Origin: Phenylobacterium sp.
GTDB lineage: Bacteria; Pseudomonadota; Alphaproteobacteria; Caulobacterales; Caulobacteraceae
DNA length: 64,000 bases
Reading direction: 5' to 3'
Assembly: GCF_004299445.1 (NCBI RefSeq)
Contig: NZ_SCTC01000063.1
Coordinates: forward strand, 93,300 to 157,299
Part shown: positions 34,275 to 39,794 of the stretch, in pieces
Position numbering within the stretch: the first letter of the stretch is position 1
Layout: each line of letters begins with the position of its first letter
Program-made: the position numbers and the translations under genes
The notes under the pieces: model-generated
What the model saw: only the letters and a program-made list of their open reading frames with translations
Database searches by the model: none
Told to the model about the DNA's origin: nothing

Positions 34275-34300
34275 AACGGCTCAGGCTGCGGCCCGGTTCC
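34275..34300 (-). promoter_or_regulatory. EcfG-type promoter for the entericidin-like gene
   Basis: On the minus strand: GGAAC (34296-34300), 17 bases, CGTT (34275-34278), 36 bases before the start codon. It lies mostly within the last codons of phyK. This is exactly the form of the nepR-ecfG promoter. Confidence 0.75.
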
Positions 34301-35990
34301 CCGGCGGAGTCGGTTGGACCCGTTCGATCGCCGGAGTCGGGAAGATCAGCTTGGCGGTGACCCCTCCGGCGGCGTTGCGGGTGATCTCGGCGCGGCCGCG
34401 CAGCTGGCGCGCAAAGGCCGTCATCAGCGTACGGCCGACGCCCGACGAGACCAGCGCGCTCTCCTCGACCTCGCCATCATCCGAGATCTCGAGCTCGGCC
34501 TCTTCACCCCGAACGCTGAAGTTCAGCCGTAGCGTGCCCCCCCGGCCGGCAAAGGCGTGCTTCTGGGCGTTGGTGATGGCCTCCACGGCGAACAGGGCCA
34601 GCGGCGCGAGGCGGTCGGGGTCGATGACCAGAGGGTCCACTCTCAGCTCAGTGCGCACCGCCAACCCATGGGCCAGCTCGCCATTGATCAGCTGGGCCGT
34701 GAGCTCTTCCAGGAACGGTCGGAGATCGACCCGCTTCAGGTCGGGGCCCTGGTAGAGGGCGCGGTAGATCAGCGCCAGGGCCGTGATCCGCTGGCGCGTA
34801 TCGCTCATCGCCGAGCGCGCCGCCGGGTCGGACAGGGCGCGCTGCTGCATGTTCAGGAGGCTCGAGATGACCTGCAGGTTGTTCTTCACCCGGTGATGGA
34901 TCTCGCGCATCAGCGCGTCCTTCTGCGCCAGGCTGTCGCGCAGCGACGCGTCGCGCCCCACGATGGCGTCGGCCATGTCCTCCAGCGTCTCGGCCAGTTC
35001 GCGGATCTCGGGGGGCATCTGTTCAGCCTGAACCGGGCGCACCGACAGCCGTCCACGGGCGTAGAGCGCCGCGATCCGCTGCAGGTAGGCGATCCAGCGG
35101 ATCACCACCCGCTCGGCCATCGCCGTCACGGCGATCAGCGCCAGCACGAACGTCAGCAACGGGAAGACGATGCCGGTCAGGGGGTTCAGCCGCGCCCAAG
35201 ACAGGATGCCCGGCGACTGGGCCGAGAGTACGACATAGACCTCGTCGCCGATCACGGGCGCGGCGGAGTAGACGCGCCGCCGGTCCTTGCCGTCGCGGCC
35301 GTACCAGACAAGGGTTCCGCGCGCCTCCACCTTGGCGCGCCAGTCCGTCGGCAGGCGCGGGAAGGCGCCGGGGTCGGTGGTGGTGATGTAACGGCCCGCC
35401 TTGTCCACCAGCCCCACTTCCGCGCCCTTCGGCAGCGTGGGGTCGCCGACCCGGGGCTGCAGGCTGCTCAGCGATATCACCGCGGCGAAGGCCCCGTCGA
35501 AGGCGCCGTCGGGGCCGGTGGCGCGGGCGGCGGTCAGGAGCGTGGGTTCGTTGGCGTAGGCCAAACCCGGCTCGCGCGTGATGGTGAAGTTGCGACCGCC
35601 GGCCAGATCGCTGAACCAGGGCCGCGAGGCCCGCTGCGGGTCGCCCGGCACCGTACCTGCCGCACAGACCACACGTCCCAGTCGGTCGAAGCGCACGAGG
35701 TTGAGGTAGCCCGGGATGCGCGAGACCACGTCGCCCAGTCGCTGGGCGCATTGATACCCCACGGCGCCCGGGGCCAGCGTCTGCAGCAGAACGTCGGCGC
35801 TCTCCATCCGCGCGCGCGCCGTGGCGGCGCTGCGTTCCGCGGCGAAGCCCAGGTTCTGGCGCAAAACCTGACCTTCGCGCTGGAAGCCGATCGCCGACTG
35901 CAGCGCGCCCAGGAGCAGCACGGGGAGCAGCGCGACCGCGAGGGCCGCGATCAGGCGCACCCGGATCGTGCTTAAGGAACTCCCGGGCAC
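34281..35990 (-). CDS. phyK: PhyK-type sensor histidine kinase of the general stress response
   Basis: A 569-residue membrane kinase expected to phosphorylate PhyR. It has an N-terminal membrane helix (LIAALAVALLPVLLLGAL), an extracytoplasmic sensor of about 240 residues (CHASE/Cache-like), a second helix (~285-305, GIVFPLLTFVLALIAVTAM), a HAMP-like stretch, and a HisKA_2-type dimerisation domain with the phospho-His in MREIHHRVKNNLQVISSLL, followed by a HATPase domain. The HRVKNNLQV box is diagnostic for the HWE/HisKA_2 group that acts on PhyR. It lies downstream of nepR-ecfG on the same strand, separated by 118 bases with a strong hairpin, and opposite phyR, as in other Caulobacterales. Confidence 0.92.
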   Translation of the reverse strand: MPGSSLSTIRVRLIAALAVALLPVLLLGALQSAIGFQREGQVLRQNLGFAAERSAATARARMESADVLLQTLAPGAVGYQCAQRLGDVVSRIPGYLNLVRFDRLGRVVCAAGTVPGDPQRASRPWFSDLAGGRNFTITREPGLAYANEPTLLTAARATGPDGAFDGAFAAVISLSSLQPRVGDPTLPKGAEVGLVDKAGRYITTTDPGAFPRLPTDWRAKVEARGTLVWYGRDGKDRRRVYSAAPVIGDEVYVVLSAQSPGILSWARLNPLTGIVFPLLTFVLALIAVTAMAERVVIRWIAYLQRIAALYARGRLSVRPVQAEQMPPEIRELAETLEDMADAIVGRDASLRDSLAQKDALMREIHHRVKNNLQVISSLLNMQQRALSDPAARSAMSDTRQRITALALIYRALYQGPDLKRVDLRPFLEELTAQLINGELAHGLAVRTELRVDPLVIDPDRLAPLALFAVEAITNAQKHAFAGRGGTLRLNFSVRGEEAELEISDDGEVEESALVSSGVGRTLMTAFARQLRGRAEITRNAAGGVTAKLIFPTPAIERVQPTPPGNRAAA

Positions 35991-36108: not shown

Positions 36109-36717
36109 CTAGCGGATGCTCGAGAGGCGCTCCGCATCGGCCAGGATTGACCGCATGGCGTCGCCCGCCGACCCGCCGTCTCGCGCATAGTCGCCAGCCT
36201 CGAGAATGGCGTGCAAGGCGCGGCGTGCGCGGCTGACCCGGCTCTTCACGGTACCGACCGCGCAGTTGCAGATATCGGCCGCTTCCTCGTAGGCGAACCC
36301 GCCGGCCCCGACCAGGATCAGGGCTTCACGCTGTTCAGGCGGCAGCATGGCCAGGCCCAGCCGCAGTTCGTCCAGGGCCACGGGGGCCTCGGGATCGTCC
36401 ACGGCCACCAGGGTCCGCTCGGCGGCTTCCTGATCGAGCTGGCTCTGTCGCCAGGAGCGGCGCTTTTCCGAATAGAACTGGTTGCGCAGGATCATGAAGG
36501 TCCAGGCCTTCATGTTCGTGCCCATCTGGAAGCTGGCCCGGGCGTCCCAGGCCTTCATCATCGCATCCTGCGCCAGATCGTCGGCCGCGGTCGCGTCACC
36601 GCAGAGGGTGCGCGCGAAGGCGCGCAGGTGAGGGATGAGCTGGACGAGGTCGCGCTTGAACACGGCGTCGTCGGCGGCGGTGCGCTCCTGACGCGGCTTG
36701 ATCTCGACGGTTTCCAT
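36109..36717 (-). CDS. ecfG: EcfG-type ECF sigma factor (general stress sigma)
   Basis: A 202-residue sigma factor, the output of the PhyR-NepR partner switch (called SigT in Caulobacter). Sigma2 is in residues ~15-85 (LIPHLRAFARTLCGDATAADDLAQDAMMKAWDARASF, then MKAWTFMILRNQFYSEKRR) and sigma4 in ~120-185 (LAMLPPEQREALILVGAGGFAYEEAADICNCAVGTVKSRVSRARRAL). The ATG overlaps the nepR stop by one base (TGATG), so both proteins are made in a coupled way. Transcription comes from the EcfG-type promoter in front of nepR, giving autoregulation. Confidence 0.95.
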   Translation of the reverse strand: METVEIKPRQERTAADDAVFKRDLVQLIPHLRAFARTLCGDATAADDLAQDAMMKAWDARASFQMGTNMKAWTFMILRNQFYSEKRRSWRQSQLDQEAAERTLVAVDDPEAPVALDELRLGLAMLPPEQREALILVGAGGFAYEEAADICNCAVGTVKSRVSRARRALHAILEAGDYARDGGSAGDAMRSILADAERLSSIR

Positions 36718-36905
36718 CAAGACTTCCCCGAGCCACGTTCGTCGGCGCGACGCAGGATTTCGAGAAACTCCGCGGGGATTTCCTCGTTCACCACTTCGTC
36801 GAACATCTGACGCAGGCGAACGCCGATCGCCTGCTGCCGCAGGCGGGCCTCATCCAGGGCTGCGGAGGCCTTACGGCGCTCCGGTAAGGGACGCTGTTCG
36901 ATCAT
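36717..36905 (-). CDS. nepR: Anti-sigma factor NepR
   Basis: A 62-residue anti-sigma factor that holds EcfG until phosphorylated PhyR takes it away. The conserved NepR core is visible: IGVRLRQMFDEVVNEEIPAEFLEILRRAD, made of two helices. The ORF track starts at a TTG (36965), but that codon overlaps the -10 element of the promoter at 36964-36989; the ATG at 36905 (MIEQRPLPERR) gives the usual ~60-residue protein and a 5' leader of about 50 bases. First gene of the nepR-ecfG operon, divergent from phyR. Confidence 0.92.
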   Translation of the reverse strand: MIEQRPLPERRKASAALDEARLRQQAIGVRLRQMFDEVVNEEIPAEFLEILRRADERGSGKS

Positions 36906-36963
36906 TTCATCGGCGCTCCGCTCGCGCGAAGTCCGCCCCCTCTCGTGATCCTCGTCGCCGCTC

Positions 36964-36989
36964 AACGTCCTCGCCCTGTCCCCGGTTCC
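36964..36989 (-). promoter_or_regulatory. EcfG-type promoter of nepR-ecfG
   Basis: On the minus strand GGAAC (36985-36989), 17-base spacer, CGTT (36964-36967), matching the known EcfG/SigT consensus. It gives a positive feedback loop on the sigma factor operon. Confidence 0.88.
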
Positions 36990-37029: not shown

Positions 37030-37054
37030 GGAACCGGTTCCCCGAAAAGACGTT
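37030..37054 (+). promoter_or_regulatory. EcfG-type promoter of phyR
   Basis: GGAAC (37030-37034), 16-base spacer, CGTT (37051-37054). The -35 is half of a perfect palindrome GGAACCGGTTCC (37030-37041); the other half points back toward nepR but has no CGTT at the right distance. Confidence 0.85.
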
Positions 37055-37135: not shown

Positions 37136-37933
37136 TTGAGTCTTCTAGCCCGACTGGCGCCGCACTTGCCTTATGTGCGCCGATACGCGCGCGCGTTGAC
37201 CGGCGATCAGTCTACCGGCGACCATTACGTTCGCGTCGCACTCGAGGCCCTGGCGGCCGGAGAGCGGACACTTGCCGACGACATGACGCCGCGCGTGGCT
37301 CTCTATCATGTCTTTCACGCCATCTGGTGCACCTCGGGCGCTCAGCTTGAGAGCCCGGCCGACGACGACTATGCGGACGACGCCACCCGTCGCCTGATGC
37401 GGATCGCGCCGCGGTCGCGGCAGGCGTTCCTGCTCACGGCTCTGGAAGGCTTCACGCCGTCCGAGGCGGCCCAGATCCTGGGGTCCGATTTCTCCGAGGT
37501 GGACAAGCTGATCGCCGAGGCCCAGTCCGAGATCGACGCCGAGCTTGCGACCGACGTCCTGATCATCGAGGACGAACCGGTTATCGCCGCGGACATTGAG
37601 GCCCTGGTCACCGAGCTGGGCCATTCCGTGGTCGATATCGCCGCGACCCGAACCGAGGCGGTGGACGCCGTCGCCCGGCGGACGCCCGGGCTGGTGCTGG
37701 CCGACATCCAGCTGGCCGACGGCTCTTCGGGCATCGATGCGGTGAAGGACATCCTGCAGCGCTACGACGTGCCGGTCATCTTCATCACGGCCTTCCCCGA
37801 GCGCCTGCTTACCGGCGAGCGGCCCGAGCCCACCTTCCTGATCACCAAGCCCTTCCAGCCGGAGACGGTGAAGGCGGCGATCGGTCAGGCGCTGTTCTTC
37901 CATCCGCGCAAGTCTGCGAAGCAGGCTGCCTGA
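37136..37933 (+). CDS. phyR: Anti-anti-sigma response regulator PhyR
   Basis: A 265-residue protein in which an EcfG-like domain (residues ~1-125, LLARLAPHLPYVRRYARALTGDQ... EGFTPSEAAQILG) is followed by a receiver (~140-255, LIIEDEPVIAADIEALV; phospho-Asp in LVLADIQLADGSSG; Thr in VIFITAFPE; Lys in ITKPFQPE). On phosphorylation it binds NepR and frees EcfG. The start is taken at TTG 37136, which has GGAGGGG 8 bases upstream and gives the usual SLLARLAPHLPY N-terminus; an in-frame ATG at 37112 would add MKTREGSP. The ORF track version (from 36698) runs back across the nepR gene and is not real. Confidence 0.92.
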   Translation: MSLLARLAPHLPYVRRYARALTGDQSTGDHYVRVALEALAAGERTLADDMTPRVALYHVFHAIWCTSGAQLESPADDDYADDATRRLMRIAPRSRQAFLLTALEGFTPSEAAQILGSDFSEVDKLIAEAQSEIDAELATDVLIIEDEPVIAADIEALVTELGHSVVDIAATRTEAVDAVARRTPGLVLADIQLADGSSGIDAVKDILQRYDVPVIFITAFPERLLTGERPEPTFLITKPFQPETVKAAIGQALFFHPRKSAKQAA

Positions 37934-38012: not shown

Positions 38013-38267
38013 CTAGGGCGCCTGGCGGGTCGCCGTCGGCGGCGCGGGCGTGTCGAAGGTCTGCGCCTGCTGCTGCTCCTCAAGGCGCGTCGGCTCGCTG
38101 GATGCGAGGTCCGGCGCTTTCCAGGACCAGGCCGCAAACATGCCCAGCGCCGCCAGCAGGGTTCCGAACACCAGCACCCAGAAGATGTGACGTCCCCAGC
38201 GGCCCTGGCGCGCGCGCGTGGCGTTGAGGGTTGGCGGCGGCCGATCAGTCTCTCGAGAAAACGTCAT
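38013..38267 (-). CDS. Small single-pass membrane protein in stress island
   Basis: An 84-residue protein with an Arg-rich N-terminal part, one membrane helix (IFWVLVFGTLLAALGMFAAWSW) and a Glu/Gln/Thr/Pro-rich tail, so probably cytoplasm-in with a periplasmic C-terminus. No family recognised. Second gene of a two-gene unit, 9 bases after 38277-38480, under an EcfG-type promoter. Confidence 0.7.
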   Translation of the reverse strand: MTFSRETDRPPPTLNATRARQGRWGRHIFWVLVFGTLLAALGMFAAWSWKAPDLASSEPTRLEEQQQAQTFDTPAPPTATRQAP

Positions 38268-38276
38268 GAAGGTCTC

Positions 38277-38480
38277 CTACTCGGATGGGAAATAGCTGAA
38301 CGGGCCGGTGCGCATGTCGGACGGGCCGGCTGGCGCTGTGAGGTAGCCCATCAGGCTGCCCGCCAGCGCCAACGCCGCAACCGCGCCGACGACAGCCCAC
38401 CGCCTGCGCGCGGCGTCGATGCGCACGCTAGGACCGCGAACCAACTTGAGACCCTTCGTGGATGCCAGGGAACTGCGCAT
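38277..38480 (-). CDS. Small single-pass membrane protein, EcfG-controlled
   Basis: A 67-residue protein with a basic N-terminus (MRSSLASTKGLKLVRGP, RRRWA) and one membrane helix (VVGAVAALALAGSLMGYL), then a short tail ending SYFPSE. No family recognised. It is preceded, 51 bases before its ATG, by a perfect EcfG-type promoter, and leads a two-gene unit with 38013-38267. Confidence 0.7.
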   Translation of the reverse strand: MRSSLASTKGLKLVRGPSVRIDAARRRWAVVGAVAALALAGSLMGYLTAPAGPSDMRTGPFSYFPSE

Positions 38481-38530: not shown

Positions 38531-38556
38531 AACGCGGTTGGCCAAGGCGGCGTTCC
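38531..38556 (-). promoter_or_regulatory. EcfG-type promoter for 38480-38013 operon
   Basis: On the minus strand GGAAC (38552-38556), 17 bases, CGTT (38531-38534) followed by AA. About 44 bases of leader before the first ATG. Confidence 0.8.
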
Positions 38557-38606: not shown

Positions 38607-38631
38607 GGAACGCCTCTGAAGCGCGCGTGTT
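38607..38631 (+). promoter_or_regulatory. EcfG-like promoter of the candidate sRNA
   Basis: GGAAC (38607-38611), 16 bases, TGTT (38628-38631): the same spacing as phyR with one -10 mismatch that keeps GTT. The -35 is embedded in a GCGTTC-g-GAACGC palindrome. Confidence 0.65.
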
Positions 38632-38635
38632 CTAT

Positions 38636-38756
38636 GTCTGCGGAGGCGGCGACGCCCCCCCCGACTTGAGACTGGCGAGCATGCCAGTCTGCCGTCTCCG
38701 CACCCTTTTCTCGATGATGCACACTCGGCGGGCCTCACTGGCCCGCCGTTTCTTTT
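38636..38756 (+). ncRNA. Structured small RNA, candidate GsrN-like stress sRNA
   Basis: No protein gene fits the 346-base gap 38481-38826. From about 38636 to 38756 the + strand reads as a folded RNA. A 12-bp basal stem pairs TGCGGAGGCGGC (38639-38650) with GCCGTCTCCGCA (38691-38702), one G:U. An 8-bp inner hairpin pairs AGACTGGC with GCCAGTCT (38669-38690). An unpaired 18-base bulge contains eight consecutive C (38655-38662). A single-stranded linker CCCTTTTCTCGATGATGC follows, then an intrinsic terminator. An EcfG-like promoter sits at the right distance upstream. The C-rich exposed loop, sigma dependence and location next to ecfG/phyR recall GsrN, the SigT-dependent sRNA of Caulobacter; homology is inferred, not tested. 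Exact 5' end unknown. Confidence 0.75.
38727..38756 (+). terminator. Intrinsic terminator of the candidate sRNA
   Basis: GGCGGGCC-tcact-GGCCCGCC followed by GTTTCTTTT: 8-bp perfect stem plus T-rich tail, with no upstream protein gene on this strand to account for it. Confidence 0.85.
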
Positions 38757-38826: not shown

Positions 38827-39270
38827 CTACTTCATCACCGACAGCTTGATCGTAACGTCCGCCCGCCGCCGCACGGGAGCCTGGCCCGCCGCTGTCACGG
38901 AGCCCGCCTGGCCGACGGCCGACATCTCGAACTCGGCGTCGGGCAGGCCCGCCCTCCGGATCGCCGCCGCCACGGAGGCCGCACGCTTCTTCGACAGTTC
39001 GAGATTCGCGGCGGGATCACCGGCCGCGTCGGCCAGACCCAGCACCCGAACCTCGTCCACCTTGCAGCCCTTCGCCTGCGCCGCGCCGGCGACAATGGCG
39101 CGCCGGCCGTCGCGGGTGACTTGGGCGTCGTTCGGCTCGAAATAGACCGGCAGGGTGAGATCCTCACAGAGCCGGGGCGCCCGCACCATCCTCTCTCGTC
39201 GGCTGGTCGTGCTGCAGGCCGAAAGGCCGACCGCCAGCATGACGCCGGCTGCGATCAAGATTCGGGTCAT
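38827..39270 (-). CDS. OmpA-family lipoprotein
   Basis: A 147-residue predicted lipoprotein (lipobox LSAC, Cys19) with an OmpA-C-like peptidoglycan-binding fold: LPVYFEPNDAQVTRDGR at the start and NLELSKKRAASVAAAIRRAGL, the usual N-x2-LS-x2-RA-x2-V motif, near the end. It would tether the outer membrane to the cell wall. The ATG at 39270 has GGAGGGG upstream; the longer start lies inside the terminator of the preceding gene. It is in the stress island but no EcfG promoter is seen directly in front. Confidence 0.85.
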   Translation of the reverse strand: MTRILIAAGVMLAVGLSACSTTSRRERMVRAPRLCEDLTLPVYFEPNDAQVTRDGRRAIVAGAAQAKGCKVDEVRVLGLADAAGDPAANLELSKKRAASVAAAIRRAGLPDAEFEMSAVGQAGSVTAAGQAPVRRRADVTIKLSVMK

Positions 39271-39283
39271 TGTCCCCTCCAAC

Positions 39284-39318
39284 AAAAAAGGGCGGCCGGA
39301 TCTGGTCCAACCGCCCTT
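39284..39318 (-). terminator. Intrinsic terminator of glycine-zipper gene
   Basis: On the minus strand AAGGGCGG-N15-CCGCCCTT followed by TTTTG, 25 bases after the glycine-zipper gene stop and just before the OmpA-like gene. Confidence 0.8.
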
Positions 39319-39738: not shown

Positions 39739-39764
39739 AACGCGCTTGGCTCAGGCCCAGTTCC
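39739..39764 (-). promoter_or_regulatory. EcfG-type promoter of glycine-zipper gene
   Basis: On the minus strand GGAAC (39760-39764), 17 bases, CGTT (39739-39742). Confidence 0.8.
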
Positions 39765-39769
39765 GATCC

Positions 39770-39794
39770 GGAACCAAGGGGCCCCCGCACCGTT
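39770..39794 (+). promoter_or_regulatory. EcfG-type promoter of 39828 operon
   Basis: GGAAC (39770-39774), 16 bases, CGTT (39791-39794). Its -35 is only 5 bases from the divergent one, giving the symmetric block GTTCC-GATCC-GGAAC. Confidence 0.8.

Follow-up and report, generated by a model that had tools for sequence, protein, structure and literature searches.

What is encoded in the gene-less gap that lies a short distance beyond phyR in this Phenylobacterium genome? The gap (38607-38756, plus strand) belongs to a 64-kb stretch of one contig, analyzed here in full and referred to as the window. A first-pass annotation had interpreted it as a structured stress-type small RNA resembling GsrN. 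We conclude, with a probability of about 0.97, that the element is gsrN, the general stress response small RNA of Caulobacteraceae, presumably transcribed by EcfG and equipped with a C-rich loop that would pair with mRNAs. As such, the element is already known: it belongs to an existing Rfam family and occurs in a genus with a published homolog, since Tien et al. 2018 (PMC5869019) described GsrN homologs from Phenylobacterium, typically located next to ecfG/nepR/phyR. Family membership, a covarying structure, conservation of the promoter and the loop, and synteny are each directly supported by the present analysis.

The covariance search that the first-pass annotation had proposed strongly favors the GsrN interpretation. 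Across the whole window, the only Rfam match at the gathering threshold was RF01529 (“CC3552,” Caulobacter sRNA) at 38642-38748 (+), which scored 87.9 bits, 37.9 above the gathering score of 50 (E = 9.5e-13), and covered the model over its full length (positions 1-106). The source genome carries a single copy of this family. Matches to ncS16, rpsL_pseudo, and sucC at the same place scored 15-18 bits and were taken as chance.

The name CC3552 was not found in the literature searched, and the equation of RF01529 with GsrN therefore rests on sequence checks, of which there are three. When the RF01529 sequence of C. vibrioides DSM 9893 is numbered from GCGAAGG, C falls at 53 and T at 54 and 64, the loop contains six Cs, nucleotide 37 lies in the apical loop of the second hairpin (P2), and nucleotide 93 lies in the terminator loop; this numbering reproduces the published landmarks of GsrN, namely, the cleavage ends C53/T54 and T64, the length of 106 nt, the C6 loop, and the functional tag-insertion sites (PMC5869019). 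The GsrN interacting sequence given in Table 1 of the same paper, UCAAGUCGGGGC, is the reverse complement of GCCCCGACUUGA, the C-rich loop. Finally, C. crescentus gsrN is reported to lie away from the general stress locus, whereas other Caulobacteraceae typically have it nearby (PMC5869019), and the C. vibrioides copies of RF01529 are likewise distal: in one genome (G077), the copy and phyR are on different contigs, and in a close relative (G130), they are 83 kb apart. The label “GsrN-like” can give way to “GsrN ortholog.”

The predicted EcfG (sigma-T) promoter, GGAAC-N16-TGTT, occupies 38607-38631 (+). The -10 element TGTT departs from the consensus CGTT, which counts against the GsrN reading, although the same variant is common to 14 of 82 relatives. 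All of these 82 distinct Caulobacteraceae loci, which were chosen by loop and stem and not by promoter, have the GGAAC box at the corresponding position, with a spacer of 16 nt (72 loci) or 17 nt (10 loci) followed by CGTT (48), TGTT (14), GGTT (13), AGTT (6), or CATT (1). A degenerate EcfG pattern has eight matches in the window, where 1.9 would be expected; by itself, the promoter motif would thus be modest evidence, but it is conserved. The first-pass annotation placed the transcript start near 38636; alignment with the mapped 5' end of C. crescentus GsrN (PMC5869019) makes 38640 more likely. The probable transcript accordingly runs from 38640 to 38748-38755, with the gene at 38640-38748 (+) delimited by the RF01529 match and the aligned start. 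It ends in an intrinsic terminator (38726-38755) composed of an all-GC stem of 9 bp (38726-38748) followed by TTTCTTTT, a U-tract. On the plus strand, the gap is gene-less, and the flanking ORFs, a small one at 38277-38480 and an OmpA-family one at 38827-39285, are both on the minus strand. The gene boundaries are now fixed for annotation.

Within the RNA, a 12-bp closing stem (P1) pairs 38640-38651 with 38690-38701 and encloses a single-stranded target-recognition loop, ACGCCCCCCCCGACTTGA (38652-38669), with the C8 tract at 38655-38662, and the hairpin P2 (38670-38689; seven Watson-Crick pairs and one G:U). The first-pass annotation was right about the gene-less gap, the EcfG-like promoter, the exposed C8 tract, the 8-bp hairpin, the strong terminator, and the length of the 12-bp stem, for which it gave a single G:U pair where there are two. 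The predicted folding energy is -52.6 kcal/mol compared to -37.2 +/- 3.0 kcal/mol for shuffled sequences (z = -5.1; none of 200 shuffles as low). In an alignment of 50 sequences including C. vibrioides, 97.5% of the cells in the three helices are paired, and 14 of the 27 pairs show double changes, a number reached in none of 500 shuffles (mean 6.1), with slid structures yielding 1-5. P1 is paired in 99.0% of cells, with double changes at 2 of 12 pairs; because loci were filtered for the stem, the conserved 5' arm of P1 was favored, whereas P2 and the terminator helix are free of such selection. In these 50 sequences, P2 is paired in 100% of cells, with compensatory double changes at six of seven pairs, and the terminator helix in 93%, with six of eight tested pairs covarying. 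Since the loci obtained by pattern scanning were selected for the loop, so that invariant loop columns in the 50-sequence alignment overstate its conservation, the loop was judged on 30 loci fetched by RF01529 match alone; all 30 retain a C-tract of 6-8 followed by GAC. The exact-pattern scan of contigs also produced chance matches in unrelated phyla, which were removed by requiring the stem. Lack of conservation of stem and C-tract in related species, which would have spoken against a small RNA, is thus the opposite of what the comparison (run on Caulobacteraceae) revealed.

GC-rich DNA commonly contains inverted repeats, and the gap could in principle consist of DNA palindromes without an RNA product or of a leader or terminator element only. 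We consider this highly improbable: the helices covary through G:U intermediates, the promoter and terminator are conserved on one strand together with an unpaired loop, and no gene lies on the plus strand immediately past the terminator, both neighbors being on the minus strand. The first-pass view of an RNA rather than a DNA palindrome is supported. It is also very unlikely, if slightly less so, that a GsrN-like small RNA arose independently beside phyR as an analogue, in the manner proposed for Rhizobiaceae, where small RNAs with C-rich loops near the general stress locus have been put forward as looser relatives (PMC5869019). Such an origin is contradicted by full-length homology, given that the 87.9-bit match spans the whole 106-position model and the window RNA aligns end to end with the 50 sequences including C. 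vibrioides, and position and promoter are the same as in relatives.

As the first-pass annotation had stated, the element sits beside ecfG and phyR; indeed, the phyK-ecfG-nepR-phyR set next to gsrN is complete. It comprises the sensor histidine kinase gene phyK (34281-35990, -; NF051872, 2.1e-257, over the cut-off), the ECF sigma factor gene ecfG/sigT (36109-36720, -; Sigma70_r2/r4 domains), which adjoins the anti-sigma factor gene nepR (36717-36965, -; NF051865, 3.7e-33), and the gene for the anti-anti-sigma response regulator PhyR (37142-37933, +; NF006623, 1.4e-112), the upstream neighbor of gsrN, which begins 706 nt past the phyR stop. The closest relatives of the region among named records include three Phenylobacterium loci (L078, L100, and L106).

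The window also contains six perfect EcfG motifs (GGAAC-N16/17-CGTT) against 0.73 expected: 34275-34300 (-), 36964-36989 (-), 37030-37054 (+), 38531-38556 (-), 39739-39764 (-), and 39770-39794 (+). Five are upstream of stress-locus genes, preceding nepR-ecfG, phyR, a 67-aa ORF, a glycine-zipper ORF, and a 107-aa ORF; the motif at 34275, located at the 3' end of phyK, may be due to chance. The minus strand between phyR and gsrN holds the 67-aa ORF (38277-38480, -), which sits behind its EcfG motif, and an 84-aa ORF (38013-38267, -). The predicted products of both gave no Pfam or NCBIfam match and are conserved among relatives (tblastn matches: 15 and 60, respectively).

Of 199 Caulobacteraceae genomes, 125 gave an RF01529 match, and in 105 of the 116 genomes with both genes listed, it follows phyR on the same strand no more than 3 kb away, the median gap being ~0.7 kb. 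GsrN and PhyR occur together in 123 genomes, GsrN alone in 2, PhyR alone in 28, and neither in 46 (Fisher p = 4e-23, a value that overstates independence, the genomes being related). The link is not absolute, as the 28 genomes with PhyR and without a detected RF01529 demonstrate. Three of the genomes in which PhyR is present and RF01529 went undetected (G103, G113, and G181) belong to the genus of the window, and the phyR region of G181 contained no RF01529 match even in a weak-threshold Rfam scan; GsrN has possibly been lost or has strongly diverged in these three. Four Brevundimonas genomes (G159, G078, G151, and G155) gave a second RF01529 match of 35-37 bits, below the gathering score. In G159 (locus L181, 1001-1117, +), this match has no C-tract (CGCCCATTTCGACC) and no U-tract terminator, and its reverse strand reads, by eye, like a coding gene. 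The second match is probably spurious.

The EcfG dependence, processing, and mode of action of the window RNA are extrapolated from C. crescentus GsrN, for which EcfG-dependent transcription, an endonucleolytic cut yielding a stable 5' isoform of 51-54 nt, base pairing with the katG leader, and protection from peroxide or osmotic stress have been reported (PMC5869019). By analogy, under stress, PhyK and PhyR would free EcfG from NepR, and EcfG-RNA polymerase would initiate at ~38640 and transcribe ~107 nt up to the intrinsic terminator. The 12-bp stem and the small hairpin would expose the C8GACUUGA loop, which could base-pair with G-rich stretches in mRNA leaders and alter translation or stability. 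Cleavage of the RNA probably occurs in the 3' arm of P1 near 38696/38697, the alignment position equivalent to C53/T54 in C. crescentus GsrN, leaving a stable 5' piece of ~57 nt that would bear the loop.

Which mRNAs this loop might contact is a separate matter. That katG is the main target, as in C. crescentus, would be a narrower version of the GsrN ortholog reading, compatible with it, and we regard it as rather doubtful. The source genome has katG. In the katG leader, the stretches AGGUCGG and UUGGGG are complementary to portions of the loop and located close to where C. vibrioides has GUCGGGG. The predicted pairing, however, does not rise above the background of other leaders: among 101 window ORF leaders, 12% pair as well over 115 nt and 51% over the nearest 53 nt. 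Two katG leaders from the same genus (L170 and L172) had no matching G-tract by eye. Furthermore, in an 80-genome sample that includes some incomplete genomes, katG (TIGR00198) is absent in 17 of the 43 GsrN-bearing genomes (G006, G074, G022, G035, and 13 other Caulobacteraceae), so that katG cannot be the target of GsrN everywhere, and where it is missing, the conservation of GsrN must be due to other targets. In the source species, katG is a possible but unproven target, judging from leader complementarity. The same 17 genomes lead us to propose, tentatively, that this lineage keeps GsrN for targets not centered on katG, with an ancestral, unnamed target behind the conservation of the loop.

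The general stress response of Phenylobacterium thus carries the same post-transcriptional arm as that of Caulobacter. The survey figures, that is, the presence of GsrN in 125 of 199 genomes, its co-occurrence with PhyR, and its uncoupling from katG in a sizeable minority, go beyond what is given in the available portion of PMC5869019. Compared to C. crescentus GsrN (CCNA_R0081) as described there, the window RNA shares the EcfG-type promoter, the ~106-nt length, the closing stem, the C-rich loop followed by GACUUGA, the second hairpin, and the intrinsic terminator, and differs in having C8 instead of C6, TGTT as the -10 element, and a place beside phyR instead of a distal one. Relative to the RF01529 (CC3552) model, its P2 loop is two bases longer. 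With the homologs described from Brevundimonas, Caulobacter, and Phenylobacterium (Figure 9 of PMC5869019), it has in common both the family and the genomic place near ecfG/nepR/phyR, and sequence drift is the only difference found.
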